Source: Seonamhaeicola sp. ML3 (GTDB taxonomy: Bacteria; Bacteroidota; Bacteroidia; Flavobacteriales; Flavobacteriaceae). From it: a stretch of DNA of 64,000 nucleotides. This document shows, one piece after another, positions 1 through 18,147 of this stretch; position 1 is the stretch's first letter, and every line of letters starts with the position of its first letter. A model generated the notes under the pieces. That model saw nothing but the letters and a program-made list of their open reading frames with translations. It was not told the origin of the DNA and made no database searches. The translations under genes and the position numbers were made by a program. The stretch spans positions 1,550,001-1,614,000 of the forward strand of contig NZ_CP096884.1 of assembly GCF_023273855.1 (NCBI RefSeq), written 5' to 3'.

Positions 1-1
1 T

Positions 2-326: not shown

Positions 327-2300
327 ATGAAAAAGTTAGTTTTACTATTGTGCTTATGTTTTAGCTTTCAGTTTATTTATGCTGAAAAATATGCCTTAAT
401 AGTTGCTGTTGGCAACTATCCTAAAAAAACAGGTTGGAGTAGTATCAGTTCGGTTAACGATGTGCCTTTAATAAAGTCTACCCTTTTAAATCAAAATTTT
501 TCTGAAGACAACATAACGGTATTAATCGACGAGCAGGCCACCTATAAAGGTATTATTGGGGCTCTGGATGATTTGTTGCGTAAAGTAGGGCCAGAGGATA
601 TTGTTGTGATTCATTACTCAGGTCATGGTCAACAGATTTTCGATAATAATGATGAGGAAATTGATGGTAAAGATGAGGCTCTTGTACCTTATGATGCTTG
701 GGTAAAATACAATAACAATTATAAAGGCGAACGTCACTTACGCGATGACGAATTGGGCAATTATATTACGAAATTCAGAAATATATTAAGTGCTAAAGGG
801 CAGTTGTTATTGCTTCTAGATAGTTGCCACTCTGGGTCTAGTACAAGAGGCGGAAAAGCTAGAGGAAGTGCCGCTGTTTTTGCCCCGGCAGATTGGGAGC
901 CCAAAAAAGATGGCGATGTATCGGGAAGTGATATGACCGAAAACTCTAAAGAAAAACTCAGTGATAATGCTGCACCTTTTGTATTAATTTCGGGAGCCTC
1001 GGCTAATGAGTTGAACTATGAGTATAAAGGAACCGGTTCTTTGAGTTATGCGTTTTCTAAAGCCATGAGTAGTTTAGGAAGTAACTTTTCATACAATCAG
1101 TTGTTTGCGAAAATTGAAAGTCAAATGAACGTGATTTCACCTAAGCAGAACCCAACCATTGAGGGCGATTTAAATGTTCAGCTATTCAATAACCAGTATG
1201 TTAAGCAACAGCCCTTTTTTAAAGTAAAATCAGTTCCGAGAGAAGATGTTATAAAGATTCAGGCAGGTAAAATACATGGGGTATTCAAAAATACAACAGT
1301 TCATGTTTTGCCATCTGGAACAACAAAAGTTGAAGAGGAAAATATCATCACTAAAGGGGTTATAACACTATCAAAGTTTAATGAATCCATTATTAAGTTA
1401 GATACACCCCTAGAAGATTTCAATGAAAAAAACTATTGGGTGTTTATAGATAAGCTTTCTTATGGCGATATAGCCGTAGATGTTTATTTTGATAGGACTG
1501 TTAAGGATAAAAAGATAGTGAATGGAGTAACCAATTTTTTATCTGATAAAAGTTTAGGGCAAGTAGTTAAGAAAATAGATTCAGCAGATGTGGTTTTGAG
1601 TCATGTTGAAGACCAAATAACATTAAAGTCTATTAACGGATTGGGAGACATAGATGCAGATGCAGATACCAGAGGCGCAACTACTATAGAAGATATTAAC
1701 CAAAAACTTTTTGCTTTTGCACAAGGGCAATATTTAAAAAACTTAGAATTCAAAAATTACAATTACGAATTCGAATTCAAATTGATTCCTATTGAATTTG
1801 ATATACTTACCGATGAGGTTGGTGAATTAAAAGATGCTTCGACATTGACTAACGACAATGGAACTTTTCAAGTCAAAGAAGACATAGATCATGTGGTTTT
1901 GCAGGTTACGAACAAGAGTGAAAAACCGCTTTATTTTAGTATTATTGAGATTAATTCAAAAGGAGAGATATTCCCGTTTATGCCCAATGATAATTGTACT
2001 TTAAATAATGATGAAAGGAAGTTAGCACCGGGTAAAAGCATGATTTTTAAAGATTGTATTTTCTCTTTTGGTCCACCTTACGAAAAACTCATTTTAAAGG
2101 GATTTGCAACATCCTCTCCAATTAATTTTCAATCAACCGTTGAAACCAGGGGTGAAGAGAGTACCAGAAGTGCATCTAATCCTTTAGAACAATTTTTAGC
2201 AAATAGTTATTCCCAATCTAGAGGTCCAAAGGCGAAAAAGGTAAGTGGAAGAATAGATGGTTTTAGTACCGAGTTTGTGTATGAGATAATTAGGAAATAG
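327..2300 (+). CDS. Secreted caspase-like peptidase (C14) with DUF4384-like C-terminus
   Basis: 657 residues. Residues 1-19 form a Sec signal peptide. The caspase fold spans about 20-290, with catalytic His100 in HYSGHG and Cys167 in DSCHSG, both intact. Directly after the Cys (residues 174-181) lies RGGKARGS, in the loop joining the large and small catalytic subunits, where caspases are cut during activation. A second basic RGPKAKK is at 632-638 near the C-terminus. Residues ~290-460 are unassigned beta-rich sequence. Residues ~530-620 resemble DUF4384, often found with bacterial caspases (LYFSIIEINSKGEIFPFMP). Caspase relatives of clan CD in bacteria usually cut after Arg or Lys. It sits 7 nt after the barrel gene and 19 nt before the next caspase gene. 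The peptidase fold is confident; substrate and role are unknown. Confidence 0.85.
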   Translation: MKKLVLLLCLCFSFQFIYAEKYALIVAVGNYPKKTGWSSISSVNDVPLIKSTLLNQNFSEDNITVLIDEQATYKGIIGALDDLLRKVGPEDIVVIHYSGHGQQIFDNNDEEIDGKDEALVPYDAWVKYNNNYKGERHLRDDELGNYITKFRNILSAKGQLLLLLDSCHSGSSTRGGKARGSAAVFAPADWEPKKDGDVSGSDMTENSKEKLSDNAAPFVLISGASANELNYEYKGTGSLSYAFSKAMSSLGSNFSYNQLFAKIESQMNVISPKQNPTIEGDLNVQLFNNQYVKQQPFFKVKSVPREDVIKIQAGKIHGVFKNTTVHVLPSGTTKVEEENIITKGVITLSKFNESIIKLDTPLEDFNEKNYWVFIDKLSYGDIAVDVYFDRTVKDKKIVNGVTNFLSDKSLGQVVKKIDSADVVLSHVEDQITLKSINGLGDIDADADTRGATTIEDINQKLFAFAQGQYLKNLEFKNYNYEFEFKLIPIEFDILTDEVGELKDASTLTNDNGTFQVKEDIDHVVLQVTNKSEKPLYFSIIEINSKGEIFPFMPNDNCTLNNDERKLAPGKSMIFKDCIFSFGPPYEKLILKGFATSSPINFQSTVETRGEESTRSASNPLEQFLANSYSQSRGPKAKKVSGRIDGFSTEFVYEIIRK

Positions 2301-2319
2301 GGTTGTTATAAAAAATATA

Positions 2320-4044
2320 ATGATGAGAAGAACTTGGTGTTTGTTTTTAATATTATTTATAAGTTCGAATCTCTTCGGGCAAAAGATTAACCCTATTGAT
2401 AGAAGAGGTTACAAACCTCAAGATGTTTATGCTTTAACTATTGGGATAAATAAATATTCTGGAACCCTTAACCCATTGAATTTATGTGTAGCAGATTCTC
2501 AGCAGCTTATTAAAAAGTTGGTTTCTGATAACAGAGAAACAGATGAACGCTTAGAATCAAAATCTGGAGCTAGAATTAATCAATACAATATAAAGGACGT
2601 TAAATATCATATGCTTAATGATGAGAAAGCTACGATAGATAATATAAGAGCAGCTTTTAAAAAAGTGATTTCTGAGGCGTCTTCAGATGATTATTTTGTA
2701 TTTATGTTTAGTGGGTATTCCCTAGAATCTCAAGATAATCAAACCTATATTGTACCTTATTTAGAGGATATTGAATTCACTTATGAATACGAAAATGGTT
2801 CCTTCAAATATACAGAGTTTGATAAATCAAAAGTTATGTCATTGGTTGAGTTGGCCAAACTAATGGAGCAAATTCCATGTAAAAACCAATTAATAATCTC
2901 TGAGGCTGGTAACGGCAATTCCTTTGGGCAAAATCTAATTACCGAATTATTTGAGTCTAATCCTTTAATAGCTGAAGGTTCAGAACGTAATAGAATTATT
3001 TTGACGACTAAAGAAATGGGAATTGAAGGGGGAAGATGTAATGGTGAGCGCATGCAAAATGGTTTTATGATGAGTTATATCTTGGAAAATGGTAATATAT
3101 TGGATGCCTTTTTCGATTTTAATGCATACGAATTCTGGCTTACTAGATCGGAAATGCTATGTCCTTATAGATCGAGAAAGTACATAGCTTCTTATCAGGA
3201 AAGGCTTTATAGACAGTTACTTTTAAATAACTACAAAAGACAAAATAGCAGGGGCTCCAAAGGTAATAAAGTACAAGTCGAGACCAAGGTAGACGATAAG
3301 ATTTCAGAAACCTATGCTTTTATCTTGGCAACAGATAGCTACAATGAAGTCCAAAACAGTTGGGAAAATTTAAAAAATCCAATTAATGATGCCAATGTTA
3401 TTGAGACCATTTTAAGGGAAAGGTACCACGTAAAAACAACCAAAGTTTACAATAAGAACAAAAATGAGGTTTTAAAAGCCTTTTTGCAGTTTAAGCAACA
3501 ATTAGGTGAGAATGATCAACTTTTGTTTTTTGTTGCAGGCCATGGATACTACAGTGAAGCATTTTCAGATGGCTATCTGGTAATGAAAGATAGCAATAGT
3601 TTAGAAGACGATATTACTCTAGATAGTTATTTGTCTATGGCAAAATTGAATCGAATTTTAGATGGGGTGAAATGCAAACAAGTGTTTTCAATATTTGATG
3701 TTTGCTATGGTGCAAGTTTTGAGTTAAACAATGCCGATTTACCAATAGAAAACTACTCAAAGACCAAGTTCGACAATGGTTTAGATGCTTTTATTCAAGA
3801 AAAAAACAAAAATTATTCCCGTATTGTATTAGCATCGGGGCAATATGAGGTTTTTGATTATTGGAAAGATTCTGAAGATCATTCGCCATTTGCAAGTAAA
3901 CTTATTAAAGCTCTAAAGAGTGAAAAGCAATTTTTGTCTCCCGGAAGAGTGTTTTCCTATTTATTAGGGAATGCTACAACGCCCATATTGAAACAATTTG
4001 GAAAGCATGAGGCTCGTGGAGATTTTCTACTAAAGGTAAAATAG
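2320..4044 (+). CDS. Secreted tandem caspase: inactive first domain, active second domain
   Basis: 574 residues with a signal peptide (about 1-20, ending FGQ). Two caspase-like domains are present. In the first (~35-290) the His position reads FSGYSL (Tyr133) and the Cys position reads SEAGNG (Gly197), so both catalytic residues are lost while the surrounding strands are kept. The second (~325-574) keeps His408 (VAGHGYY) and Cys462 (FDVCYG). The domains are joined by a basic linker containing RGSKGN at 311-316. A pseudo-enzyme fused to an active one suggests regulation, in the manner of caspase-8/cFLIP, but that is analogy only. The next gene begins 6 nt downstream. Domain calls rest on motif reading; catalytic activity of domain two is likely but unproven. 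Confidence 0.82.
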   Translation: MMRRTWCLFLILFISSNLFGQKINPIDRRGYKPQDVYALTIGINKYSGTLNPLNLCVADSQQLIKKLVSDNRETDERLESKSGARINQYNIKDVKYHMLNDEKATIDNIRAAFKKVISEASSDDYFVFMFSGYSLESQDNQTYIVPYLEDIEFTYEYENGSFKYTEFDKSKVMSLVELAKLMEQIPCKNQLIISEAGNGNSFGQNLITELFESNPLIAEGSERNRIILTTKEMGIEGGRCNGERMQNGFMMSYILENGNILDAFFDFNAYEFWLTRSEMLCPYRSRKYIASYQERLYRQLLLNNYKRQNSRGSKGNKVQVETKVDDKISETYAFILATDSYNEVQNSWENLKNPINDANVIETILRERYHVKTTKVYNKNKNEVLKAFLQFKQQLGENDQLLFFVAGHGYYSEAFSDGYLVMKDSNSLEDDITLDSYLSMAKLNRILDGVKCKQVFSIFDVCYGASFELNNADLPIENYSKTKFDNGLDAFIQEKNKNYSRIVLASGQYEVFDYWKDSEDHSPFASKLIKALKSEKQFLSPGRVFSYLLGNATTPILKQFGKHEARGDFLLKVK

Positions 4045-4050
4045 TTTCGT

Positions 4051-7000
4051 TTGAAGTTTTTTATAAACATCGTTTTAGTCTGTTTTATGTCCTATTCTGT
4101 TTTAGGGCAAGATGCTTCCCGTGGATCAAAAGCAAAAAATACTTCCGAAACAAAACAGGGTGTAAAAAGAGCCTTGATTGTTGGTATTTCAGATTATAAG
4201 GAGGAGTCTCTGAAATTAGATTACTCTGATGACGATGCCCTAATTTTCAAACAATATTTAGAAGAGGTTGAAAACATTCCAAACGAACGTCTAGTTACTT
4301 TGGTAAGCAATGATTCCATTAAAGGCGCCTCAATTACCGAACCGAGTTCGAGCAATATCCTTAGAGAGTTGAAAAAGCTCAAGGATGAAACCCAAGAAGG
4401 AGACACGGTATATTTCTATTTTGCAGGGCACGGTGATGTTGTGGACGACCAAGGATTTGAAGAGGGGTTTTTACTGGCCTCAGATACCAACGACAAGCAA
4501 GAGTATTACGGAACCCCTGGCGTGGTGTCGTTAAAACACCTAAACAGTGTAATTACTGCGGTTACAGATAAGGGTGCCAAGTTTGTTTTGGTTTTAGATG
4601 CTTGTCGTTCGGGCTTTTTATATAAAGAAGGTACGCAGAAGAACCTAGAGACTTTCAATAACAACTTTCAACATTCTACAAAGTTTTTTAGCTGCGGACC
4701 CAATCAACTATCTTATGAAAGTAAAGAATTGGGTCATGGGTATTTCACCTATTATTTGGTCTTGGGATTACTTGGTGCAGCCGATAATCTAGTACAGGAT
4801 AATAGCCTTCAGTATTTTGAAATAGCTACTTTTTTAGATGGCAAGGTAAAAAGTGAAACTAACCAAAAACAAGCGCCAATTGTTTGGCATCAAAACACCG
4901 TCGGGGTTTTTAAGGCTGTTGAGAGTAAGGATAAAGAATTGGCTCTTAAAAATCTCCAAAACGCAAGTAGTATTAAAAATATTTGGGCATCCCGTTCATT
5001 AGAAGATCTCGTTTCAAAATCAATTACAGAAAATCCTGTAGTAAAAGCGTTTAATGCGGCTTTAAATTCAGAAAACTTTCATGGCTCAGATAGTTCAGCA
5101 TACGAAATATATAAGAGGGCAGATGTCCAGAAATTAGTGGAAACTTCAGTTTTAAACAGAATGCGCTATGGGCTGATCAATGCTTTGTCTACCAATGCTC
5201 AAATCTTGATTAATACGTATATAGGGAATGCTGAGGTGTTACCCAGTAGCAAGATTTTTAAGACCAAAGCCTTTTACCTAGAATTATGCTTAGAATTACT
5301 AGAAAAAGATGATTTTATTTACGATAGAATTTACATGGGTAAACTTTTTTTAGAAGCTTATTCTGTAATTAGGGCGCGCCATTATTCAGAATACCCTGGG
5401 GCTAAAAACAAGTTAATGGAGGCTTTGGGAATTGAAGATAGAGCTGCTTACATTCATAATGCACTTGGGTTGGTTTTAAATCATGAAAATAATTTTAAAG
5501 AAGCGGAGTATCATTACAAGAAAGCAAAAAACTTAATTCCATCATGGTCGTTTCCTGTTAATAACATGGGATCCAATTATTATGAACAATACCAATATGA
5601 TCTTGCCAATTCTTTTTTGTTTGAAGCATTAAAACTAAAGGGCTCTGAAGGGAATGCCTACAATAATTTAGGAGCCATAGCACAAGATCAAGGTAATTAC
5701 ACGAAAGCCGAGGCATACTTTCATAAAGTTAAAGAGACGGAAGGAAATTATTCATCTACTACGCTTAAGAATCTTGCTAACCTATATAGAAATAGAGGTA
5801 ACATAAAAAAAGCGGTAGACTATTTCGAATTAGCCTTAAAAGAGAATCCGAGTAATGTTTATACCTATTACGATTATAGTGACCTTTTAAATGATGAAAA
5901 CTTAGATTTAAAACGAGCTGAGTTATTGCTACAACAGGCCATAGATTTAGAACCCTATTTTTCAAGGGGACATGCCGAATATGCAGATTTATTAAGGCGT
6001 TACCCAAGAGATGAAAATAGCCTTAAAACGGCCGATAGCTTATACAACTTTGCCATTAAGAATGATCCTTTTTACGAGTGGGCTTACGCCGGAAGGGGTT
6101 GGTTAAAACATAAACAAGATTTAAAATTAGAAGCTTTAGAGTCTTTCAATCAAGCAATAAAAGTGAATTCAAAAAAGCCAAAACCTTATTATAATTTGGC
6201 TGTATATTATAAGAATGGACTCAAAGAAATAGCAAAAGCCGAAGCACTTTATTTAAAAGCCATAGAGAGAGATTCATTCTACTTACCTGCTTACGAAGGT
6301 TTAATTGGCTTGTACAATAAACACAATCAGGAAGATAAGTCTATAAAGCTATTACAAAAACTTGTAGAGTGGCACAAAGAAGCGCCAGATGTGTGGAATT
6401 TACTCGGTAATACCTATTTCGACAAACGAAATTATCCAGAAGCTATTATGGCTTACAAAAAGGTAGTTCAAGTAGATTCTACCTATGCAAAAGGGTTTAC
6501 AAATTTAGCATATAGTTTAATGAAAACAGGTGACTATAAAGAGGCCTCTAAAACCTATAAGAAAGCCATTGGTTACAACCCCTTTAAAAATAAACTTGAA
6601 AATTTTTCCACACTATTGTTAGCAGAAGCAAGAAAAGCAAAACGAAGTGGTAACATGCAACAAGCTGAAAGTATTCTTAATGCTGCGTATGAATTCAATC
6701 CAGACTTTAACGCAACTTTTGCTTTGGGGGAACATTATTATTTAAATTCAAAATCTTCAGAAGCCAGTTCATTAATAATGGTATTTCCAAAAGAAGCACT
6801 TTCAAAAACACGTAAAATCAAGTTTTTGGAACTGTTATGTAAAGTGGCCATAGATTTAAATAAACACGAAGAATCGCTTTCTGTTTTAAAGGAATTGAAG
6901 CTTATTAGTCCGAGGCCTAATTACATTTTAGAGGCCTTAGTACTACTTAAAGGTGAAAAGGTAATGGAAGCTAAAGAAACCCTTTTAAAAACAAATTCAT

Positions 7001-7077
7001 TACTTTTAAGAGAAGGGTATTTAAATAAATCTTATAGTAAGCATGCTATAAACTTAATTCAACAACTTCAAGAATAA
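4051..7077 (+). CDS. Secreted caspase-TPR protein
   Basis: 1008 residues. The start is TTG at 4051; the first ATG in frame is 12 codons in and would cut away most of the signal peptide (KFFINIVLVCFMSYSVLGQ), so TTG is preferred. RGSKAK lies at 24-29, only a few residues past the expected signal-peptide cut. The caspase domain follows (~40-290) with His127 (FAGHGD) and Cys185 (LDACRSG). Residues ~430-1000 are tetratricopeptide-like helical repeats (for example AYNNLGAIAQDQGNYTKAE and NLLGNTYFDKRNYPEAIMAY), which usually bind partner proteins. The stop overlaps the next start by one base (TAATG), implying translational coupling to the YD-repeat gene. The caspase and TPR calls are firm; partner and substrate are unknown. 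Confidence 0.85.
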   Translation: MKFFINIVLVCFMSYSVLGQDASRGSKAKNTSETKQGVKRALIVGISDYKEESLKLDYSDDDALIFKQYLEEVENIPNERLVTLVSNDSIKGASITEPSSSNILRELKKLKDETQEGDTVYFYFAGHGDVVDDQGFEEGFLLASDTNDKQEYYGTPGVVSLKHLNSVITAVTDKGAKFVLVLDACRSGFLYKEGTQKNLETFNNNFQHSTKFFSCGPNQLSYESKELGHGYFTYYLVLGLLGAADNLVQDNSLQYFEIATFLDGKVKSETNQKQAPIVWHQNTVGVFKAVESKDKELALKNLQNASSIKNIWASRSLEDLVSKSITENPVVKAFNAALNSENFHGSDSSAYEIYKRADVQKLVETSVLNRMRYGLINALSTNAQILINTYIGNAEVLPSSKIFKTKAFYLELCLELLEKDDFIYDRIYMGKLFLEAYSVIRARHYSEYPGAKNKLMEALGIEDRAAYIHNALGLVLNHENNFKEAEYHYKKAKNLIPSWSFPVNNMGSNYYEQYQYDLANSFLFEALKLKGSEGNAYNNLGAIAQDQGNYTKAEAYFHKVKETEGNYSSTTLKNLANLYRNRGNIKKAVDYFELALKENPSNVYTYYDYSDLLNDENLDLKRAELLLQQAIDLEPYFSRGHAEYADLLRRYPRDENSLKTADSLYNFAIKNDPFYEWAYAGRGWLKHKQDLKLEALESFNQAIKVNSKKPKPYYNLAVYYKNGLKEIAKAEALYLKAIERDSFYLPAYEGLIGLYNKHNQEDKSIKLLQKLVEWHKEAPDVWNLLGNTYFDKRNYPEAIMAYKKVVQVDSTYAKGFTNLAYSLMKTGDYKEASKTYKKAIGYNPFKNKLENFSTLLLAEARKAKRSGNMQQAESILNAAYEFNPDFNATFALGEHYYLNSKSSEASSLIMVFPKEALSKTRKIKFLELLCKVAIDLNKHEESLSVLKELKLISPRPNYILEALVLLKGEKVMEAKETLLKTNSLLLREGYLNKSYSKHAINLIQQLQE

Positions 7078-8726
7078 TGATTAGGTATTTCAAGATATTG
7101 GTCTGCATAGGTTTTTTTTTAAGCAATCTATGTTATGCTGGTGTCAATCTTAAGAACGGAAACTATTATGTGTCTTACACAGATATTGAAATGAATGCAT
7201 TTCGTTCTGCCTATACAAGTATTGTAAGGACTTATAACTCGAAATCTACAACTGTTGGATTGTGGGGTTACGGTTGGGGTTCTGAAATTGAGACTAAATT
7301 GTATGCTTATCCAGATGGAACAATTTTAATTCAAGAGTTTGGTTCTGGTGCAACTACGTATTACAAATCAGATTTGGTAACCGATGATATGATAGAAATT
7401 ATGGTCGATGAACTTTTAGACATCACACTGTCTGAAGGCGATTTAACAGATTCACCAGATGCCATCATTGCAAGACGAAATAAACTCATGAAAGACATGG
7501 AATATAGGTCAAAGCAATGGGATAAATATGTAGAAAAAGGACTGTTGGATTATGCTTTAGATTTTCCAGAAGGTATGGAATGGGAATCTTATCAGAGAGG
7601 GAATTCGGCATTAGTTAGAACATCTAATGGTTATACAAGAACTTCACGAAGAGAAATAGAAACTTTTGATTTTAACGGAAACCTTACAAAATACGATAAA
7701 GGTAATGGCGTATATAGCATCCTAGAATATGTTGATAACAGACTTTCTAAAATGATAAGTGCCGATGGAAAAGAATTGGTCTTTACACTTAATGACGATG
7801 GATTTATAGTAAGTATAGCCTCTAGTGCAGGAAATTCCAGTTACATCTATGAAGGTAAGAAGCTGGTAGAGACTAAAGATGCCATTTCTAATATATTCAA
7901 ACATACTTATGATGATTTGTATAATATGACTTCGATAAGTTATCAAGATGGTAGTGTTTTTAGAATTGAATATCACCCTAAAACCTATAATGTAAAAAAA
8001 ATTGTTGGTAGGGATGGTACTGTCACAGGTTACGAATATCATACTTTTTATAACGAAGATGGTTCAATAAATAAAAACCATTATGCTACTTCTGTAATTA
8101 AAGAATATTATGGGACTACAAACTCCAATTATTATGAATACCTTATTGGAAGAAAGTCCAACGGCGAACCTTATAATAAAATGATTAAGACCATTGTAAA
8201 TGGGATAACAACTCAAACGCATTACGACGAGTTGTGTGGCAATCCAACAGCAATCTCCAGAAATGAACAAAAGACCACATTTAAGTACAACAACCGTTGT
8301 CTCTTAATCGAAAAGCTGTCAACCTTGGGCGACTCTATTTATTTAAAATATCACCCTAAATTTGAGAAGATAACCTATGTTAAAAATAACGATGTTGAAA
8401 CCGAATTTGGGTATGATGATAGAGGGAACTTGATTACTGCCAAAAAAGATGATGGCAACCAAATGGAATTGGTTTATGATTCTAAGGGACAAATCATCAA
8501 GATGATTCAATTTGAAAGTATTTTAATTTTTGAATATAATGACTACGGTAAAACCATTAAAATCACTAAACAAGGTTATGGTACTGTGAACATAGACTAT
8601 GACAAGAATGGAGATATGCTAAAAGTTACTAAGAAAAAAGAAAAAAGAATAATGCAAGAGGTCAATGAGGCCTTTCAAAATATGCTGACTTTGGTAAAGC
8701 CAGCGGGTGTTAATTTACAGATGTAA
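7077..8726 (+). CDS. Secreted RHS/YD-repeat protein, no toxin domain visible
   Basis: 549 residues with signal peptide (~1-21). The N-terminal part resembles the DUF6531-type start of RHS proteins (LKNGNYYVSYTDIEM, RTYNSKSTTVGLWGYGWGSE). Residues ~200-530 hold degenerate YD repeats of the form F..D..G......DG......Y (YDDLYNMTSISYQDGS, YDDRGNLITAKKDDG, YDSKGQIIKMI). RHS proteins usually build a shell around a C-terminal toxin; here there is no RHS core cleavage motif and the protein ends shortly after the last repeat. It carries no RGSK motif, unlike the flanking proteases. The start overlaps the caspase-TPR stop by one base and the stop is 12 nt before the TPR-CHAT start, so it is embedded in the protease operon. 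It may be a structural or substrate component; that role is inference. Confidence 0.75.
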   Translation: MIRYFKILVCIGFFLSNLCYAGVNLKNGNYYVSYTDIEMNAFRSAYTSIVRTYNSKSTTVGLWGYGWGSEIETKLYAYPDGTILIQEFGSGATTYYKSDLVTDDMIEIMVDELLDITLSEGDLTDSPDAIIARRNKLMKDMEYRSKQWDKYVEKGLLDYALDFPEGMEWESYQRGNSALVRTSNGYTRTSRREIETFDFNGNLTKYDKGNGVYSILEYVDNRLSKMISADGKELVFTLNDDGFIVSIASSAGNSSYIYEGKKLVETKDAISNIFKHTYDDLYNMTSISYQDGSVFRIEYHPKTYNVKKIVGRDGTVTGYEYHTFYNEDGSINKNHYATSVIKEYYGTTNSNYYEYLIGRKSNGEPYNKMIKTIVNGITTQTHYDELCGNPTAISRNEQKTTFKYNNRCLLIEKLSTLGDSIYLKYHPKFEKITYVKNNDVETEFGYDDRGNLITAKKDDGNQMELVYDSKGQIIKMIQFESILIFEYNDYGKTIKITKQGYGTVNIDYDKNGDMLKVTKKKEKRIMQEVNEAFQNMLTLVKPAGVNLQM

Positions 8727-8738
8727 AAATGAAATCTA

Positions 8739-11700
8739 ATGTACATCAAAAGGATTACCTGTATTATAATAATGGTTTTTACCATGTCTTTAAGTGCTCA
8801 AGAGGGTGAAGCTATAAAAAAGCAATGGGAAGAAAGTCTTAATCTTGGAGTGGCTTTTTTTAAAACAAACAATTTTCTTGATGCTAAGACAAAATTTAAA
8901 GAAGCCATTAAGCTTTCTAAAGAGTTATCAAATTCTTTTCCATGGGCAGGTATTAATACAAAGTACTTCTATGCAGCAACCTTATTTAGGTTAAATGATT
9001 TTGACTCTGCTAGAGCGAATTATGAGGCGGCTCTAAAAGGAGCACAGGAAACATCTGAAAGAAATATAGAGTTTGAAATCCTTGTTAAAAAGGAGATTAT
9101 TGGCATTATCTCTAAACTTGGTAATTATCAAGAAGCCATCACGAAACATAAATCGCTTAATGATTTTATAAAAAATAATTATGGCGAGAATTCAGAATTT
9201 TATGCTGGTATCCTCACCAGTTTTGGACAGCTATATTTTTCTTTAGACGACTGTGAATCTGCTTTGAGATACTACAAAAAAGCAGAGATTATATTTAATA
9301 GACTTGGAATCCAAACACAAGATGTTTCTATATTAAATAATAATCTAGGTTTATGTTATTTTCAGTCTGGGAACTATATTGATACCGATAATGCATATTC
9401 AAAAGCTTTTGATATTTTAGAAAAGGTTGGTTTTGAAGATCAAATCTATTATTCCAAACTCTTAAGTAATATTTCTGCTCTTGGATTAGTTCAGGGAGAT
9501 TATGATAATGCTAAAATTCTTCAGCAAAGATCTTTAGAAATATTATTTGAATTAAATCTTCATAATTCTATTGATTATGCAGATGGATTATTTGTTTATA
9601 GTCAATTATTGAAAGAATTAGGGAAGTTTGACAATGCGCTTTATGAAGCAAATAGAGTGATGAAATTATACTTGGAATTATTGCCGAGTAATCATCTCAA
9701 ATTTGCTAACGTATATAATATTTTAGGGGAGCTGTATCTTAATAATGGCAATACCAAATTGGCTTCTAAAAACTATAATGACGCATATAATTTATTAGAA
9801 AAATCTGAATCACAAAATTCCCCGGCTTACGGTTATACTATGCTTGGATTGGGCTATCTCAATCAAGCTTTGGGTGACTATGATAAGTCTTTAGAATATT
9901 ATATTTCAGGAGCTAATCACTTAAAAACCAATTTTTCTGAAAAACATAAAGATTACGGAATTGCCTTAATGAATATTGGAGGAATCTATAGAGCCAGAGG
10001 TGACTACCAAACAGCCTATACATTTTTAGAGACCGCAATAGATATAATTGCAGATTCTATAGGAACAGATAATACTACCTATGGTCAATTGTGCGTTATG
10101 ATTCTTCAAGTAGCATTTGCAAATCCAGAAGAAACGCTTTCAGAATTGGAGTTTTTGGCAGATTATGCTATAAAAATCTTCAGTTCCAAAGAGAACATAA
10201 ACAACCTATTTTACAATTATGCACATTTTTTCAAAGCAGTGGCAAGAATGGAAAATAAGGAATATCAAGAGGCCGTTGACTTGTTGCTTACTGTTGAGAA
10301 GGAAATAAAAAAAGATGTTGAAGAAAGTAGTCAGCTCCACAATAACGTGGTTTGTCTAATTGCCGTTAACTATCAAAACTTAAACGATTTTGAAAAGGCT
10401 TTTTCTTATTATAAAAAAGCCAACAAGTTTACTTTACAATCTATAAATGAGATATTTTCATTTAGAAGTGAAAAAGATAAAAAGAGCTATTTAAAGACCA
10501 TTGAAAATTGGTTTTCAAATGTCACTTCAATTTCTATGAAAGAGGGATTCGTTAATTCAGAGTTAACAGAATTATCCTTAAACAATCAACTGTTAAGAAA
10601 AGGTTTGTTGCTAAACAGTTCAAAAGACATTCTTACTCAATTAGAATCTCTAAAAAACGATAGTATTAGTGCTTTGGTAAAAGAATATAAATCATTTAAA
10701 GACATCATTATATATTTAGGAATACTGCCCGAACTAGATGGGGTGAAAGAGGTAGAAGCGGTGAAGAATGATATCAATCGAATTGAAACCCAATTGGTAG
10801 AATTGTATAATGAAAACTTTGATACCGAATCGGATTTTAACAAAGATTGGAAAACTATAAAATCTAGTCTAAGAGAAAATGAGGTTGCTATTGAATTTGT
10901 TTCTTATATCAATAGTGAATTAGTTGTAAAATACATAGCTTATTTAATAAAGAGTGATTCAAAAGTTCCTGAAGTGGTAACACTTTTTGATGAGCAAGAC
11001 TTGAAAAATGTTTTAAGTAGAAAAACACCCAGACAACTCTATGCAACTAGGGGCTCTAAGGGAAAAAGTATAACTGTTTCTAAAAGTATGTCTGATATCA
11101 TTTGGGAACCACTTGAACGGTTTGTTGGCAATGCTGAAACTATATATTATTCACCTGTTGGCTTGCTTAATCAAATTCCATTTGCTGCTATTAGTACAAA
11201 AGAAAGTCAACTGTTAAGCGAAAAATATAACTTGTTACAATTGAGCAGTACTAGTTTGTTGTCAAATAGTTTTAATGAACCGAATGCAGAAAACACGTTA
11301 TTTGTTGGTGGAGTTGATTATGAGTTTGTACCAAGTGCTAAAATTGAAAGTAAAAAAGACTCTGTGTTTGAGTTCTTAAAATCATCTAAGGGCACACGTA
11401 GTTTGGGGGCAAATTGGGATTATTTACCAGGAACTTTAAAGGAGGTAAAGGAATTAGGAGCTTTATTTAAACAAAACAATAAAACTTATAGTAGCTTAAC
11501 TAAAAAAGCTGCAACAGAAGAAACATTTAAAGCTTTGAGCGGGAAAAGCCCAAACATTTTACATATTGCAACACATGGTTTTTTCTTCGAAAATCTTGAT
11601 ATATCAAAAGAAGCCCGTGACCAATTGGCTTGGTCTCAAGAATCTGTTTATAGAATTTCAGAAGATCCGCTTATGCGTTCAGGCTTGATTCTTGCCGGGG

Positions 11701-12080
11701 CAAATTATGCGTGGGAGCATAACACTAATCCTCATACTAAGGAAAATGGAATTTTAACTGCTTTAGAGATTTCAAACCTCGATTTATCGAATACCGATAT
11801 GGTCGTGCTATCTGCATGCGACACGGGTTTAGGGGATATTGATGGTAGCGAAGGTGTTTACGGTTTACAGAGAGCGTTTAAAATGGCAGGGGTAGATATT
11901 ATTGTCATGAGCCTGTGGGAAGTGCCAGATAAAGAAACTGCAGAGTTTATGAAATTGTTATACAGTAATTGGTTAGGCGGAATGAAAGTAAGAGAAGCAT
12001 TCAATACTACCCAAAGAACGATGTCTGCTAAGTATAAAGATTCACCAGAAAAATGGGCGGCTTTTGTGTTATTTGAGTAG
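8739..12080 (+). CDS. Secreted TPR-CHAT protease
   Basis: 1113 residues. A signal peptide covers ~1-20 (ending SLSAQ). TPR-type repeats run from ~30 to ~590 (AGILTSFGQLYFSLDDCESALRYYKKAE-type units). A CHAT domain occupies ~705-1113 with His946 (LHIATHG) and Cys1027 (LSACDTG), followed by the typical EGVYGLQRAF and LWEVPD segments, so the catalytic pair is complete. CHAT is related to caspases and separase; TPR-CHAT proteins include the protease of type III-E CRISPR complexes, but those are cytoplasmic while this one is exported. RGSKGK at 771-776 lies in a loop just before the conserved IWEPLE segment. The gene is 12 nt behind the RHS gene. The domain call is confident; substrate unknown. 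Confidence 0.88.
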   Translation: MYIKRITCIIIMVFTMSLSAQEGEAIKKQWEESLNLGVAFFKTNNFLDAKTKFKEAIKLSKELSNSFPWAGINTKYFYAATLFRLNDFDSARANYEAALKGAQETSERNIEFEILVKKEIIGIISKLGNYQEAITKHKSLNDFIKNNYGENSEFYAGILTSFGQLYFSLDDCESALRYYKKAEIIFNRLGIQTQDVSILNNNLGLCYFQSGNYIDTDNAYSKAFDILEKVGFEDQIYYSKLLSNISALGLVQGDYDNAKILQQRSLEILFELNLHNSIDYADGLFVYSQLLKELGKFDNALYEANRVMKLYLELLPSNHLKFANVYNILGELYLNNGNTKLASKNYNDAYNLLEKSESQNSPAYGYTMLGLGYLNQALGDYDKSLEYYISGANHLKTNFSEKHKDYGIALMNIGGIYRARGDYQTAYTFLETAIDIIADSIGTDNTTYGQLCVMILQVAFANPEETLSELEFLADYAIKIFSSKENINNLFYNYAHFFKAVARMENKEYQEAVDLLLTVEKEIKKDVEESSQLHNNVVCLIAVNYQNLNDFEKAFSYYKKANKFTLQSINEIFSFRSEKDKKSYLKTIENWFSNVTSISMKEGFVNSELTELSLNNQLLRKGLLLNSSKDILTQLESLKNDSISALVKEYKSFKDIIIYLGILPELDGVKEVEAVKNDINRIETQLVELYNENFDTESDFNKDWKTIKSSLRENEVAIEFVSYINSELVVKYIAYLIKSDSKVPEVVTLFDEQDLKNVLSRKTPRQLYATRGSKGKSITVSKSMSDIIWEPLERFVGNAETIYYSPVGLLNQIPFAAISTKESQLLSEKYNLLQLSSTSLLSNSFNEPNAENTLFVGGVDYEFVPSAKIESKKDSVFEFLKSSKGTRSLGANWDYLPGTLKEVKELGALFKQNNKTYSSLTKKAATEETFKALSGKSPNILHIATHGFFFENLDISKEARDQLAWSQESVYRISEDPLMRSGLILAGANYAWEHNTNPHTKENGILTALEISNLDLSNTDMVVLSACDTGLGDIDGSEGVYGLQRAFKMAGVDIIVMSLWEVPDKETAEFMKLLYSNWLGGMKVREAFNTTQRTMSAKYKDSPEKWAAFVLFE

Positions 12081-12195
12081 AGAAAATATTGTAAACTGTA
12101 CAACGTGCCTTAAGGAGCAGACCTTTATAAGTTTAGAATTTACATTAATAAAAAAAGAGTAATTTATAGCTATAGAATTAGCTTTGAGTTTATTT
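12081..12195 (+). other. Intergenic gap within the protease cluster
   Basis: 115 nt separate TPR-CHAT from the WD40-caspase gene, the only sizeable gap in the cluster. I see no clear hairpin terminator. A promoter-like TAGCTTTG lies at its right end, so the last gene may be expressed separately from the six before it. Confidence 0.4.
12179..12186 (+). promoter_or_regulatory. -7 element TAGCTTTG for the WD40-caspase gene
   Basis: This is an exact match to the Bacteroidota -7 consensus TAnnTTTG, 9 nt before the ATG at 12196. I do not see a -33 TTG at the usual 17-23 nt spacing. The implied transcript would have almost no leader. Confidence 0.45.
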
Positions 12196-15100
12196 ATGAA
12201 ACCATCCAAAATTTTAAGCACCACTTTAGCTTTACTATTATACACTTGTTTTACTTTAAATGCACAAAATCAAAAGGTTAACCTAAGTCCAAGTAAAGGG
12301 TTAAGCATTTCTAGTTTTGATGTTTCTTCTAACGGAACAAAGATTGTTGTGTCAATTTCCCCATTTGAAGAAACAATAGTTTATGATGTGTTTTCGGGAA
12401 ATGAAATTGCGAGACTATCCGGATACCAAGGGTCTAGTTTTAAAACGATTTACTACGATAATTTAAGAGAACGGATAGTAGTTGTGCATGACTTGAAAGT
12501 TGATGTATGGGATTCAAATAATTATCAACTATTAAGTAGTTTCGATAAGCCAAATTATTGTTGGGTTAGTCATTATTGCGAGCTAACAGGTGAATTGGCA
12601 TTTTTACAACCCAATTCTATCACAGTATTAAATATTGAAAGTGGCAATAATCAATTAATCCCAATACAAGAAGAGACGAATTATACAAGGAAAATCCGGT
12701 TTTCAGGATCCGGTAACCAACTAGTTTATTTAAAGAATAAAGACAAAATAGGGGTTTTAAATAGGTCTGATAATTTTTCGAAAGTATCTTTTATAAAAGT
12801 TAAGAATGTAGAAGATTTTACGGTTAGTAAAACAAGCTTAGCTACACTTCAGAAAGACGAAAATTTAAATGCCTCATTTCAGTTTTTTCAGTTTGATGGA
12901 AGTCCCTCTGGTATTCCAAACCTTACAGGCAGAGGGGCTAACACTTTGTTTAATACCATGCAATCGTTTACAGATGAATTAGCATTATACAACTCTTATG
13001 ATGGTATTTCGCTTATTGCAAAAAGCGGAAGGCCATATACCTTTAATTATCCAGAAGGTATTGAACAGTTTAAGTTTATAAAAAATGTAGGCTTTGTTAC
13101 AAGTCATAAAAAGTATTTAGACTTTAAAGATTTTGATGGGAGATTACTAACAAGAATATATGTTAATTCCTTTTTTCATGCCAGTATGGTTTATAATACT
13201 TCAAAAAAGGTTAGTGAAGCATCTAGTTACTGTTTTATAGGTGATAAAAAATTATTTTTTATAGAAGATGAGCATTCGAAACCCGAAACTTTCGATTTAG
13301 AAAGTGCCTATATTAACAAATATGGTCTCGATAAAAATGTACTGGCTTTTGGATCTAGGGATGGAAAACTTCATATCTGGGATTTAGATGCCAAAAAAAA
13401 GGTAAAAAGCATAGTTACAAATAAAGGATACCCCCAAGATATATTGATTAATAAATGGAATGGTTTATTGGTGGCGTCTTACCATCAAGATAAAACCATA
13501 GATATTTATAATTATAAAACGAATACATTAATTAAGAAGATACAGTTAGAAGATGCTTCTCCATCGGCAATGGCTATAAGTGATTATTGGTTGTGTCTTG
13601 GCACCTCTAAGGGAGATTATTATAGTTGGAAATTAGATAGAAATAATGTTTCTGAAGTTCTAGTTAAGGAACCAGGATTAGGTAATGCTATAACCAGTTT
13701 GGAGATAATTGGCAATGAGTCTTACCTAGGGAGCTTTGGGCGAATTTTAAAGGCGCCTTTAGAAGTTAAGCTAAAGCGTGATGAAGGTGAAATTATTAAA
13801 GGGCATAACGGATTTATAGAATCTATAAAATCCAGTAGAGATGGCAAGTATTTGGCAAGTACCAGTAGAGATGGAACTACTTTGCTTTGGGATACTAAAA
13901 CAGGATATGCCTTAGAGAATTTTAAAACCGACTCTACTTGGACCAATCAACTTTTACTTAACGATGAACTTATTGTTTTAGGAAATGGGCCAGGTAATAC
14001 AGGTACGCTTTTTGGCGATGATGCTTTAATAAATAAATTGGAAAACCCTAATCCAGAATTAGTTATTCAATCTTCTAATGCTTCAGCGGTTCGTCAAATG
14101 CAGTTTTCACCCAATGGCAAATTAATAGCCAGTTCTGAAACCGATAAAGTATACGTAAGAGAAGTCAATACCGGTTTTCTTATTAGTGAGTTTACTACAA
14201 GTAAAAAAGTTGTAAATGATTTTGCCTTTGATCGCGAAGGAAAGTCAATTATAGTTGCTACAGGAAACGGTGTGGAATTTATAGATCCTTTTACGGGTAA
14301 GAGTAAAAAGAATATTTCCATGGAAACGCGAGGTAGAAGCATTCATCATATCGATGTTTTTCCAGATAGAAATAGCTTTGTTGTAAATAACATTCATGGC
14401 TGGCACCCACCTCTTTTTTACCACTCTAACTCTGGCGCGTTTTTGGGAGAGCTTAATATAAATCCTAATAGAAATCAAAAAGATAATATAATTTTTGATG
14501 TTAAAATATCTACTAGCGGAAAGATGTTGGCAACTTATGGAAGCCATTTCATAAAAGTTTTTGAAGTGGACTCTATTTTAAGAACCAAACAAATACTGGC
14601 AATTCCACGTAAGAAAATAAATGGTTCTAACACATATTGGAATAACTATCTAGATTTTAGTGATGATTCACAATATCTGTCTTATGTAGAAATGGATCAA
14701 GGAAACAATACGGTTATTTACGATATTAAAGAAAAGAAGGAGTTATATAGGTCACCCGGTAAATTGTCAAAGTTTGGGCAAGGAAACGAGTTTCTTTACA
14801 TGAATAGCGATGTAGGCTTAAGTTTAAAAAAAGTTAACTCCTCCAGTACACTAAATAGGTTTTATCCCAGTACAAATCATTATAGTTTGATTTCGGCAAT
14901 TGATTATGATTCCAATAACAAACTTTTTGCAACTGCAGATATATGGGGAAATACCAAAGTATGGAATGCCAATACAGGAAAAACTTTAAATGAGCTTAAT
15001 CGATTTGATAATTATGTATATAGCGCAGATGTTAGTACAAAAGGCGACTACATTGCTTATAACAATAAAACAGGTATCTATTTATTCGATTTAAGAAACT

Positions 15101-17364
15101 TTAAAGTCATAAAATTAAAAGGTAATAATTACCCCTATTTTGGTGCTTTTTCAAAGCAAGGAGATATGTTTTACTACCGTAACGGTAATGACTATATGGC
15201 TTTTAATCTCTTGACTCAAAAAGTTACTAAGCTTTTCGATTCAGGAGTATCTCACGAACACGCCAAAGGAACACAGCTCTCTAGAGATGGGGCGTATTTA
15301 ATGTTTGTAAATTCCGAAAACAACCACTTATTGTGTTACAACATCTCTAAAAAAGAGAAATACTTTGAATTAAATCTCGATGGTATTGGAGATTATTTAA
15401 AAGTATCTTCACCAGAACTGGTAGACTCCAATAAAAAAGTAATTAGAGCAACAGGACTCAAGAATATTAATGGTAAGCAGGTAGAAATTGAGCTTTTCAA
15501 CTATAATATAGAAACCAAGAAACTTGATAGGTTATCCCCAAAGCGAATACTTAATTTAGAAGATAAATTTAAAGATTTCTATATCAAGGCTAATATGGCT
15601 GTAAACCGTGTTTCTCCTAATGAGAAATATTATGCCTTTCAGGATGACTATCATTTAAAAATTCACGATTTAGTGACCAAAAATATTATATATAATGAGT
15701 CTTTAAAGAATATAACAAATACTATAGTCTCGGCTAGATTTTCTAGCAACAGCGAATATTTAATCTTAGCTTATCAAGATGGTAAGATTAGAATTCTATC
15801 TATTCCCGATTTTAAAGAAGTTAAGCGTTTTTACGGGGCTACTGGTGGGATTTCTGATATTGATATTAAAAGTCATTTTTTAATGGTTTTAGGAACAGAC
15901 AATAAAATTAATGTTTACGACTTTAAACAAGATTTTAAGCTATTGTACACCTCTACGTTTAAAGAAGGGGGAGAGTTTCTCATAGCTAATAAAGAAGGCT
16001 TTTATTATGCTACAAAAGGAACGATTAAATCTGTTGCCTTTAAAAAAGATGAGAAAATATATCCCTTTGAACAATTCGACCTTTATTATAACAGACCAGA
16101 TAAGGCTTTGGAAAATTTGGTAGATTTAGGTATAGTAGATTCTGTAAGAACAAAAGCGTATCGTCAGGCCTATTTTAAGCGAATTAGCAAGATGGGATTT
16201 GAAAAACTCGAGTTAACAAAAGAACTTCATATACCAGAGATTGAAATAAAGACGGCTAATATACCGGTAACGTTAGAAAACAAGAATTTCACATTTGAGA
16301 TTAAGGCTAAAGATAGTGTCTACAATTTAAATAGAATTAACCTTTGGGTAAATGACATACCTGTCTATGGCAGAAAAGGAAAGTCGTTAAAACCACTTCA
16401 ATCTAAAGAAATTACTCAAAATATTGACCTTACTTTAATTAGAGGGGGTAATAGGATACAGGTTTCTGTTACCAACGATAAGGGTGTAGAAAGTTTAAGA
16501 AAGACCTTTAATATTAATCATGTTGCTCCCAAAGCAAAAAGTAATTTATATGTAATAAGTATTGGGGTGTCTAATTATTTGAATAGTGATTATAACTTAA
16601 AATATGCTAAAAAAGATGCAATCGATGTTGGTTCATATTTTCAATCTTTAAGTGATAAATATGCTACTGTAAATAATATTAAAATATTAAATGAAAATGC
16701 AACTACTGAAAATATTCTTAAAGTGAAAGACACATTAGAGAATACAAAACCTAACGATATCGTAATCGTTTTTTTTGCAGGGCATGGCGTATTAGATAAG
16801 CACTTTGATTATTATCTCGCAACTCACGATATGAATTTTGATGCCCCAGATTTAAAAGGCTTAGCATATGAAGATTTAGAGAGTCTTTTAGACGGGATAC
16901 CAGCTAGAAAAAAGATACTTTTATTAGATGCCTGTCATTCTGGAGAGATTGATAAAGATAACACTGAGTTTACTAGTACAACTAATAACAATGGTAACAT
17001 TAAAGTTGCTTACAGGGGCTCTAAAGCTAAAAGCACAAAAAAAGCAAATGTTGGGTTGAAAAATTCATTTGAACTCATGAAGTTATTATTTGCAGATTTA
17101 AGAAAAGGTACTGGGGCTATGGTAATTAGTTCGGCTAGTGGTGTGGAGTTTGCTTATGAAGGCGATAAGTGGCAAAATGGGGTGTTTACATATGCTCTGT
17201 TAGAAGGGTTAAGAAGTGAAAAATCTGATATTAATGGAGATGGGGTGATTTCAATTTCTGAAATAAAAGATTATGTAGGTAATGAAGTGTCGCGTTTAAC
17301 GAATGGGCTTCAAAACCCTACATCTCGAGCAGAAAATTTGGAATGGGATTGGAAGTTATACTAA
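12196..17364 (+). CDS. Secreted WD40-propeller-caspase protein
   Basis: 1722 residues from ATG 12196. An upstream in-frame TTG at 12184 overlaps the promoter-like box and adds nothing to the signal peptide (ending LNAQ), so ATG is preferred. Residues ~30-1270 hold many WD40-like blades (DGKLHIWDLDAKKK, SRDGTTLLWDTKTG), probably two propellers. An Ig-like beta region occupies ~1310-1440. The caspase domain (~1445-1722) has His1530 (FAGHGV) and Cys1580 (LDACHSG). Between Cys1580 and the small-subunit region lies a long disordered insert with RGSKAK at 1607-1612. Near the end, DINGDGVISISE (1678-1689) is an EF-hand-like calcium loop; calcium control is known for metacaspases. It converges with the FecR-like gene, 3 nt away. 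The large propeller suggests a binding or sensing role; that is inference. Confidence 0.87.
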   Translation: MKPSKILSTTLALLLYTCFTLNAQNQKVNLSPSKGLSISSFDVSSNGTKIVVSISPFEETIVYDVFSGNEIARLSGYQGSSFKTIYYDNLRERIVVVHDLKVDVWDSNNYQLLSSFDKPNYCWVSHYCELTGELAFLQPNSITVLNIESGNNQLIPIQEETNYTRKIRFSGSGNQLVYLKNKDKIGVLNRSDNFSKVSFIKVKNVEDFTVSKTSLATLQKDENLNASFQFFQFDGSPSGIPNLTGRGANTLFNTMQSFTDELALYNSYDGISLIAKSGRPYTFNYPEGIEQFKFIKNVGFVTSHKKYLDFKDFDGRLLTRIYVNSFFHASMVYNTSKKVSEASSYCFIGDKKLFFIEDEHSKPETFDLESAYINKYGLDKNVLAFGSRDGKLHIWDLDAKKKVKSIVTNKGYPQDILINKWNGLLVASYHQDKTIDIYNYKTNTLIKKIQLEDASPSAMAISDYWLCLGTSKGDYYSWKLDRNNVSEVLVKEPGLGNAITSLEIIGNESYLGSFGRILKAPLEVKLKRDEGEIIKGHNGFIESIKSSRDGKYLASTSRDGTTLLWDTKTGYALENFKTDSTWTNQLLLNDELIVLGNGPGNTGTLFGDDALINKLENPNPELVIQSSNASAVRQMQFSPNGKLIASSETDKVYVREVNTGFLISEFTTSKKVVNDFAFDREGKSIIVATGNGVEFIDPFTGKSKKNISMETRGRSIHHIDVFPDRNSFVVNNIHGWHPPLFYHSNSGAFLGELNINPNRNQKDNIIFDVKISTSGKMLATYGSHFIKVFEVDSILRTKQILAIPRKKINGSNTYWNNYLDFSDDSQYLSYVEMDQGNNTVIYDIKEKKELYRSPGKLSKFGQGNEFLYMNSDVGLSLKKVNSSSTLNRFYPSTNHYSLISAIDYDSNNKLFATADIWGNTKVWNANTGKTLNELNRFDNYVYSADVSTKGDYIAYNNKTGIYLFDLRNFKVIKLKGNNYPYFGAFSKQGDMFYYRNGNDYMAFNLLTQKVTKLFDSGVSHEHAKGTQLSRDGAYLMFVNSENNHLLCYNISKKEKYFELNLDGIGDYLKVSSPELVDSNKKVIRATGLKNINGKQVEIELFNYNIETKKLDRLSPKRILNLEDKFKDFYIKANMAVNRVSPNEKYYAFQDDYHLKIHDLVTKNIIYNESLKNITNTIVSARFSSNSEYLILAYQDGKIRILSIPDFKEVKRFYGATGGISDIDIKSHFLMVLGTDNKINVYDFKQDFKLLYTSTFKEGGEFLIANKEGFYYATKGTIKSVAFKKDEKIYPFEQFDLYYNRPDKALENLVDLGIVDSVRTKAYRQAYFKRISKMGFEKLELTKELHIPEIEIKTANIPVTLENKNFTFEIKAKDSVYNLNRINLWVNDIPVYGRKGKSLKPLQSKEITQNIDLTLIRGGNRIQVSVTNDKGVESLRKTFNINHVAPKAKSNLYVISIGVSNYLNSDYNLKYAKKDAIDVGSYFQSLSDKYATVNNIKILNENATTENILKVKDTLENTKPNDIVIVFFAGHGVLDKHFDYYLATHDMNFDAPDLKGLAYEDLESLLDGIPARKKILLLDACHSGEIDKDNTEFTSTTNNNGNIKVAYRGSKAKSTKKANVGLKNSFELMKLLFADLRKGTGAMVISSASGVEFAYEGDKWQNGVFTYALLEGLRSEKSDINGDGVISISEIKDYVGNEVSRLTNGLQNPTSRAENLEWDWKLY

Positions 17365-17367
17365 GTG

Positions 17368-18147
17368 TTATTTACAAAGTTTGAAGCGTTCACAAAGTAT
17401 AGCTTCAATTTCTTCCTCTGAAACACCTAAACTTTTTAGGTCTAAGATGAAATCTTTGTAAGCCGTTTTTTCTTCTTCGTACTGGTTTCTATCAATTAAT
17501 TCAAAGGCGAAAAAAGTTAAATTATCTAAATTGGGAAATGCATCTTGCGAAACGGCCCATTCAAAGTGTGTGCTATCATAAAATATAGGAGACTCATTAT
17601 ATAGTGCCAATTGCGAACCGTTGGTTTCGATTTTCAGTAATTCATCCGTTTTAATATTTCTCAAAAACACATAGTAGAATTCGGTGTTTTCTAAAATCTG
17701 CCATTTAAATGTAATTTTAGAACTTGCTATTTTAGAATTATTATTTGGTGAAACCATTAACAAATCACTTCTAAAAACACCTGCAATTAAGGCTTTGTCT
17801 TCTTTGGTTTTTAGTAATTCATCCCATATATGTTTAAAGTACGCAGCAGTTAAGTTGGATTTCTTTTGCTCTGACTTAAAATTTAGAATATCTCTAAAAC
17901 CGTATTTCCCATTAACATTAACAAGATAGGTGTTTCCTGAATTGTCAATAGCCGTAAATTCTGCTTGTGGCAGTACTTTTACAAGGTGCTTTTTATTGAT
18001 CAACGTGCCTTTTTGAAGAAGATTTAATTTGTTATTGTGCTCAACCATAAAAGCGCCTTTACTTTTATATACACACAAGGTGTCCTGAGCTCCCAGATAT
18101 TGAAAACACAGTAATAATAAAACTAATCTAAAAGGTAACTTTTCCAT
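17368..18147 (-). CDS. Exported FecR-like small protein paired with the CHASE2 sensor
   Basis: 259 residues with a signal peptide (~1-20, ending YLGAQ). Residues ~25-90 look like a FecR-type beta domain (LLQKGTLINKKHLVKVLPQAEFTAIDNSGNTY is the region; note the small LQKGTLI step and the QAEFTAID strand). Residues ~130-205 resemble the fibronectin-like part often following such domains in CHASE2-associated proteins (ITFKWQILEN, HFEWAVS). The tail contains a short helical segment with two cysteines (CERFKLCK). Its start overlaps the end of the CHASE2 gene by 25 nt, so the two are translationally linked. No catalytic motif is visible. The family call is tentative; the exported location is well supported. 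Confidence 0.6.
   Translation of the reverse strand: MEKLPFRLVLLLLCFQYLGAQDTLCVYKSKGAFMVEHNNKLNLLQKGTLINKKHLVKVLPQAEFTAIDNSGNTYLVNVNGKYGFRDILNFKSEQKKSNLTAAYFKHIWDELLKTKEDKALIAGVFRSDLLMVSPNNNSKIASSKITFKWQILENTEFYYVFLRNIKTDELLKIETNGSQLALYNESPIFYDSTHFEWAVSQDAFPNLDNLTFFAFELIDRNQYEEEKTAYKDFILDLKSLGVSEEEIEAILCERFKLCK

Follow-up and report, generated by a model that had tools for sequence, protein, structure and literature searches.

Conserved Arg-Gly and Lys-Gly dipeptides as candidate processing sites in a caspase and CHAT protease gene cluster of Bacteroidota

Gene content of the cluster

The window analysed here, a continuous stretch of 64 kb, carries the larger part of a same-strand run of nine genes that leads from a trypsin-like protease to a WD40-caspase (Table 1). 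A likely signal peptide, judged by eye, is present on each of the nine products. In a preliminary description of this DNA, protease folds had been assigned to five of the proteins; Pfam agrees, placing a caspase domain in the first, second, third and last of them and a CHAT domain in the fourth.

Table 1. Genes and tag sites of the locus, in window coordinates unless preceded by a locus label.
Feature	Position	Strand	Description
trypsin-like protease with ankyrin repeats	L038:10885-12429		starts the gene run; left of the window
DUF900 alpha/beta hydrolase	L038:12485-13897		second in the run; left of the window
orf0, 3' end	1..319	+	barrel-like protein, likely signal peptide; whole gene L038:13908-15320
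casp1	327..2300	+	metacaspase-like C14 protease, likely signal peptide; proposed [RK]-G-cutting enzyme
RGGKARGS	846..869	+	casp1, two RG sites (R174, R179), loop after the catalytic Cys
casp1 R449-G450	1671..1676	+	loop of low confidence (pLDDT<50 segment 444-450); RG in 5/6
casp1 R608-G609	2148..2153	+	R in 24/29 (rest N, Q, K, G, E), G in 29/29
RGPKAKK (R632)	2220..2240	+	casp1; RG in 29/29 close homologues; within pLDDT<50 segment 631-639
dcasp	2320..4044	+	dead N-terminal caspase fold and active C-terminal caspase (predicted), likely signal peptide
RGSKGN	3250..3267	+	dcasp, linker joining its two caspase domains; RG in 5/5
caspTPR	4051..7077	+	caspase, then TPRs (Pfam); likely signal peptide
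RGSKAK	4120..4137	+	caspTPR, directly after the likely signal peptide; RG in 11/12
RHS/YD-repeat protein	7077..8726	+	same gene run (Pfam); no conserved RG site
TPR-CHAT protease	8739..12080	+	Pfam CHAT 4e-59; likely signal peptide
RGSKGK (R771)	11049..11066	+	TPR-CHAT, linker between TPR part and CHAT core; RG in 27/27 cluster CHATs besides the window
WDcasp	12184..17364	+	WD40 repeats and C-terminal caspase (Pfam), likely signal peptide; His/Cys columns in 21/21
RGSKAK	17014..17031	+	WDcasp, loop after the catalytic Cys; RG 13/20, KG 7/20 readable rows
g259	17368..18147	-	with CHASE2 beside several such clusters; this copy without RG
CHASE2-domain membrane protein	18123..19289	-	Pfam CHASE2 6e-27; near casp1-family genes in other loci

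Both in sequence and in fold, casp1 is nearest to metacaspases and MALT1. It matches Pfam Peptidase_C14 (2e-20) and the PDB profile of metacaspase-1 (4f6o, 5.7e-14), and the top Foldseek matches of its model are 3bij and metacaspase 9. The caspase p20 fold is present with catalytic His and Cys, and these two residues together with two Asp are kept in 29/29 homologues. The Asp pair consists of the residue at Cys-2 and that of an N-D motif, aligned to metacaspase-1, and presumably forms the S1 pocket. The same pair recurs in the partner caspases: Asp at Cys-2 is found in 5/5 second domains of dcasp, 12/12 caspTPR and 21/21 WD40-caspase sequences, and the second Asp in 5/5, 12/12 and 19/21, respectively. 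As judged from the alignments, the Asp to be expected with a preference for Arg or Lys is retained in the putatively active caspase domains. One article (PMC5756287) describes this P1 preference as strict for those C14 members, caspases excepted, that have been characterised.

In dcasp the dyad positions of the N-terminal domain are Gly or Ala in 5/5, so that both catalytic residues are lost and the domain represents a built-in pseudo-caspase; His and Cys of the C-terminal domain are kept in 5/5. All 12 caspTPR sequences have His and Cys. The TPR-CHAT protein combines TPRs with a CHAT domain whose dyad is present in 18/19 (His) and 17/19 (Cys) rows, the remainder being gaps, and the fold matches of its model are led by the Craspase TPR-CHAT. 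The gene for the RHS/YD-repeat protein adjoins caspTPR in the window and in loci L052, L059 and L089, which suggests that the two form a functional pair; the RHS homologue of L089 likewise has no RG.

Positions and rarity of the tag

Six copies of a tag had been described in the five proteins, and all of them lie where they were reported (RGSK at 3250, 4120, 11049 and 17014, RGGK at 846 and RGPK at 2220). The residue numbers given for them also match the translations, the one of the WD40 protein if counted from an ATG four codons past the TTG. No copy had been noticed in the remaining proteins of the window, and these six are the sole RG[SGPAT]K in open stretches of more than 150 codons in six frames over the 64 kb.

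A frequency far above chance had been claimed as well, and this is borne out by the whole genome and by related loci. A full back-translation of RGSK[AG], MGNGGNWSNAARGSN, was searched against the 3.47 Mb genome, taking RGSK followed by A or G only. It matches the DNA 17 times (19 times for the reversed control pattern), and RGSK[AG] is encoded by 5 of the 17 matches when decoded by eye: four are the window tags, and the remaining one is not part of any open frame of at least 30 codons. All in-frame copies (4/4) are located within approximately 0.4% of the coding sequence (p ~3e-10, with 90% coding assumed). In 29 related loci, the window excluded, the five families (79,866 residues) contain RGSK 27 times, and it is absent from the 98,314 residues of the other ORFs of at least 120 aa. 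Scrambled controls in the same ORFs are rare (KSGR 1, SRGK 3, RSGK 0, KGSR 2). The counts of RG against GR are 164:11 for casp1, 46:3 for orf0 and 207:162 for the other ORFs.

The tag is real and conserved. Chance, or the mere composition of lysine-rich linkers that by eye look rich in K, S, N and G, would be the simplest other explanation; given the uniqueness in the genome, the skew of RG over GR and the dipeptide scan described below, we reject it as having next to no probability.

Conservation in homologous loci

Relatives of casp1 with 54-72% identity occur in 7/397 Flavobacteriaceae genomes and in 6/199 of another set, the window's own being counted in both. In total 79 loci were gathered, every one from a record that appears to be of Bacteroidota; a plasmid search gave one weak match in 72,556 records. 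Since the loci were collected via casp1, its presence as their constant gene is partly by construction. Most of the 29 closer loci start with orf0-casp1, followed by a varying mix of dcasp, caspTPR, TPR-CHAT, short CHAT, WD40-caspase, RHS, g259, CHASE2 and second casp1-like genes (comparisons covered ORFs of at least 120 aa and families of at least 4 rows). Loci L042, L043, L066 and L084 probably correspond to G439, G418, G431 and G476, respectively, so the locus comparisons and a first, six-sequence casp1 set are not independent. The expectation that homologous clusters retain the dipeptide in corresponding linkers despite diverging flanks agrees with what we found.

In the loop after the catalytic Cys of casp1 (within 34 residues past the Cys motif) at least one RG is present in 79/79 sequences, that is, the window and 78 others, and two are present in 71/79. 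The number of residues between the paired RGs varies from 3 to 13, with both still present in those 71. A single RG is found in 8/79 and GR in 4/79. These counts leave aside three truncated ORFs (L065, L067 and L100|4442), which have two or more RGs each, and four casp1-like ORFs with weaker scores (141-168 bits), all with some RG, in which a CHSG-type Cys was not found. In alignment A2 the invariant columns include R174, G175, R179, G180 and R632 as well as H100, C167, D45 and D165, but its 50 sequences were picked for modelling and omit 7 of the 8 single-RG ones, so that the invariant columns are overstated (L046 was left out because of an unknown base). The R449-G450 site, scored in the first set, is absent from many other homologues. 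In second casp1-like genes (L055:11997-14102, L057:11928-14042, L058:14851-17022 and L063:11981-14047) we found no CHSG-type catalytic Cys, while RG sites remain; possibly they are dead paralogues.

Two of the five proteins, casp1 and the TPR-CHAT protein, were modelled. The mean pLDDT of the casp1 AlphaFold model is 82.8, and its segments of at least three residues with pLDDT<50 (170-182, 196-201, 438-441, 444-450 and 631-639) comprise 39/657 residues and hold four of the five sites (R174, R179, R449 and R632). The fifth, R608, lies outside them, immediately ahead of a weaker block. In the TPR-CHAT model (mean pLDDT 80.0) R771 is inside the segment 761-780 with pLDDT<50. In all, 5/6 sites of these two proteins fall in segments with pLDDT<50, R608 being the exception.

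For the partners, the dipeptide is kept in the linker of 27/27 TPR-CHATs and short CHATs beside casp1 (window not counted), and its R and G are 2 of the 9 invariant columns among 21 sequences. The single caspTPR without the RG after the signal peptide is that of L052. In the Cys loop of the WD40-caspases R is swapped only for K, as an Arg/Lys-specific protease would allow; one further sequence, L059|903, was not counted as its Cys motif was not found, yet it has RGSKSKT. A conserved linker RG site was not found in RHS, g259 and CHASE2.

The tag extends past the five proteins. In orf0 two RG linker sites, left of the window, are both present in 22/22 homologues above 130 bits, and three weaker matches carry only the first or some other site. 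The alpha/beta hydrolase has a linker RG in 10/10. A lipoprotein-like family near the clusters (L042:5111-6103 and eight other loci; no Pfam match for the one scanned) has two RG sites in 9/9. A small secreted protein, present in 4/29 close and 13/50 distant casp1 loci, carries RG between signal peptide and C-terminal domain in 17/17 loci (at least two in 11/17), with one to three sites ahead of this conserved domain. Its frames measure 142-186 codons (for example L069:19767-20204, L059:12076-12501 and L076:9502-9942, with 14 other loci), and no Pfam family matched the two that were scanned. In L076, L080 and L070 the gene directly precedes casp1; the product is possibly an effector or signal that is set free, and a candidate for the substrate cut first.

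The trypsin-like protease carries RG[VI][FY]G at the junction of a putative propeptide, assigned from its position, in 19/19. Four of four further ORFs from two distant loci have RG[VAS][YFW]G, and four distant serine protease matches (L219-L222) have no RGVFG, two of them having RG further in. A known zymogen N-terminus was considered and dropped: alignments with solved relatives stop short of this part, save for an insignificant piece of 7uxg. The sites might also be cut by another exported Arg-specific protease, for instance this enzyme or an unlinked one, the caspases being mere substrates. Apart from its own RG junction, the protease stands at the head of the gene run, and its 6 close matches among 289 Flavobacteriaceae are all in the six casp1 genomes of the 199-genome set. 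On the other hand, it was found in 19/29 close loci but only in 2/50 distant ones (with limited flanks), where casp1 mostly retains its RGs, and the nearest of its solved relatives include glutamyl endopeptidases, though the kinship is weak. We hold this explanation to be unlikely.

Among 55 partner sites the P1 residue is R (48) or K (7) and P1' is always G, with S at P2' in 46 and A in 8. Further along, P3' is most often K (30) or I (13), and A, G, V or S occupies P4' in 52; on the other side of the bond, S or T stands at P2 in 30. The sequence is thus more constrained on the prime side than at P2, which may reflect prime-side recognition or use of the new N-terminus. Given these sites and the R/K exchange of the WD40-caspases, RGSKxK was dropped as the core: the core of the tag is [RK]-G followed by a small residue at P2', and GSK[AG] is typical of partner sites only. 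Conservation of the C-terminal side as far as GSK[AG] is also what one would expect from a binding peptide, that is, a docking or assembly motif rather than a cut site. Cutting, however, fits better with the variable spacing of two tags in one loop, with the exchange of R for K and with the placement at domain and propeptide boundaries, which makes the binding alternative rather improbable.

To place the dipeptide among others, adjacent column pairs conserved in at least 80% and lying at least 0.4 above the mean of twelve flanking columns were collected from 17 neighbour families. RG makes up 10/48 of these isolated conserved dipeptides, and no other dipeptide occurs more than twice. Without the four families chosen for their RG (serine protease, hydrolase, lipoprotein and small protein) the share is 7/42, and it is 4/19 in the five initial families alone. 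Binomial chances at a 1% rate are 5e-11, 2e-7 and 3e-5, respectively, and are rough because this threshold was chosen among several and the sequences are related.

Candidate processing sites and known protease systems

Controls from outside the clusters show how far the dipeptide is tied to casp1. We compared 29 TPR-CHATs from other families of the class, one per genome, from 29 of 43 matching genomes (CHAT matches of at least 85 bits). The loop is covered in 28 of them (all except L156), and RG is found there in 4/28 (L144, L146, L147 and L148). A casp1 gene is present in the genome for 3/4 control CHATs with RG against 2/24 without (Fisher p 0.011); casp1 is on a different contig from the RG-bearing CHAT in G874 and G782. 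The other CHAT of the window's own genome (L125) has no RG in the corresponding loop. L146 does have the RG, and no casp1 match was found in its genome.

Caspases from elsewhere speak against a strict link: 16 of the 26 readable ones (out of 32, an orphan of the own genome included) have RG in the Cys loop, and G106 and G241 have such caspases yet no casp1 match. This orphan (L039:2336-5584), an unlinked large caspase outside the window, carries ASRGVAEE, a type often seen in caspases of other Bacteroidota; a search for its kin returned, apart from the query, a single relative, which is not enough for a control. A strict link between RG and casp1 is weakened by these caspases and by L146. As the Cys-loop RG occurs in caspases outside the clusters, some of them without casp1, it probably serves general self-processing there. 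Every protease might accordingly cut itself alone, with no shared enzyme and no processing in trans, and the self-processing of the orthocaspase MaOC1, mentioned in PMC5756287, points in the same direction. Against this, orf0, the lipoprotein, the small protein and the hydrolase keep the dipeptide and are not recognised proteases; we judge an explanation by self-cutting alone to be quite unlikely.

The preliminary description had read the motif as a common activation or release site. Most comparative tests are in line with this, but the core has shrunk to [RK]G, more than five proteins carry it, and caspases elsewhere have it in the Cys loop. The reading that we consider probable is that Arg-Gly and Lys-Gly mark processing sites in flexible linkers of co-encoded exported zymogens, with casp1 cutting them. 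It draws on positions, conservation, gene order, the low-confidence loops of two models and the Asp residues; the cutting, the role of casp1 and activation are our inference, and so is export, from signal peptides judged by eye. The RG kept in linkers, the varying spacing, the R/K exchange, the scan, the pLDDT<50 segments, the specificity Asp and the association among control CHATs all argue for it. Points against it are the Cys-loop RG in casp1-free genomes, L146, the caspTPR of L052, and RHS, g259 and CHASE2, which have no site. In addition, casp1 R608 is not Arg in 5/29, R449 is often absent, 8/79 loops have a single RG, and the preference for GSK[AG] on the prime side exceeds what a P1-driven protease needs.

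Judging by its relatives, casp1 is most likely the cutting enzyme of the tag: being metacaspase-like, it is expected to cut after Arg or Lys. It would first process its own chain in the loop that follows the catalytic Cys, and afterwards its partners at [RK]-G. Such cuts would free the CHAT core from the TPR part, separate the active half of dcasp from the dead half and remove the propeptide from the trypsin-like protease. They would also free the hydrolase from its N-terminal part, and the barrel-like protein likewise, and release the domain of the small secreted protein from its leader. The existence of a cascade, the trigger and the enzyme that cuts are put forward as hypotheses. Going one step further, and tentatively, the cluster could be an exported zymogen cascade of Bacteroidota with a logic like that of complement or coagulation. 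A metacaspase-like trigger would open caspases, a CHAT protease, a trypsin-like protease, a hydrolase, a membrane barrel and a small secreted protein via [RK]-G, and the freed GSK[AG] N-termini may be recognised by partners.

Among the literature matches listed, we saw none that describes a tag or cluster of this kind, and the likeness to known systems is partial. Animal zymogen cascades such as coagulation and complement involve several secreted zymogens that are opened after Arg. The cluster would share this arrangement, as predicted from sequence, but has caspase-fold proteases besides one serine protease. With metacaspases and orthocaspases (C14; 4f6o, 4af8, MaOC1) it shares the fold, the His/Cys dyad, the acidic specificity residues, the presumed cut after Arg or Lys and chain processing; unlike them, casp1 is likely exported, has a C-terminal extension with more RG sites and is adjoined by genes for tagged partners.

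In type III-B CRISPR, SAVED-CHAT and a prokaryotic caspase reportedly act in a proteolytic cascade (work attributed to Steens, 2024). CHAT and caspase proteases are common to that system (8tl0) and the cluster, whereas the cluster has likely signal peptides and non-protease partners, and the cluster proteins scanned gave no SAVED/CARF or Cas Pfam domain. The Craspase TPR-CHAT (Csx29; 8d9f) is among the top fold matches of the CHAT model, but the cluster CHAT is likely exported, has an RG linker ahead of its core, and no Cas7-11 was seen in the cluster. EAD/EACC1 conflict systems, as described in PMC8195603, have a common toolkit in which caspases occur with trypsin-like and alpha/beta-hydrolase parts. 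Here the cluster differs in its likely export, and its caspases fall far below the NCBIfam EACC1 cut-off (28.3, 48.3, 48.0 and 85.4 bits with NF047832, against 140).

To our knowledge, few substrates of bacterial caspase-family enzymes have been described. From sequence alone, this cluster points to a likely enzyme, to likely substrates and to the precise residues, all in what is probably an exported setting, and the role of such caspases becomes directly testable with a handful of purified proteins. Finally, g259 and the CHASE2 gene are convergent to the cluster and occur together again in L051, L056, L064, L082 and L088 (two of the g259 matches being weak). The CHASE2 protein, paired with g259, is a possible sensor of the cluster.
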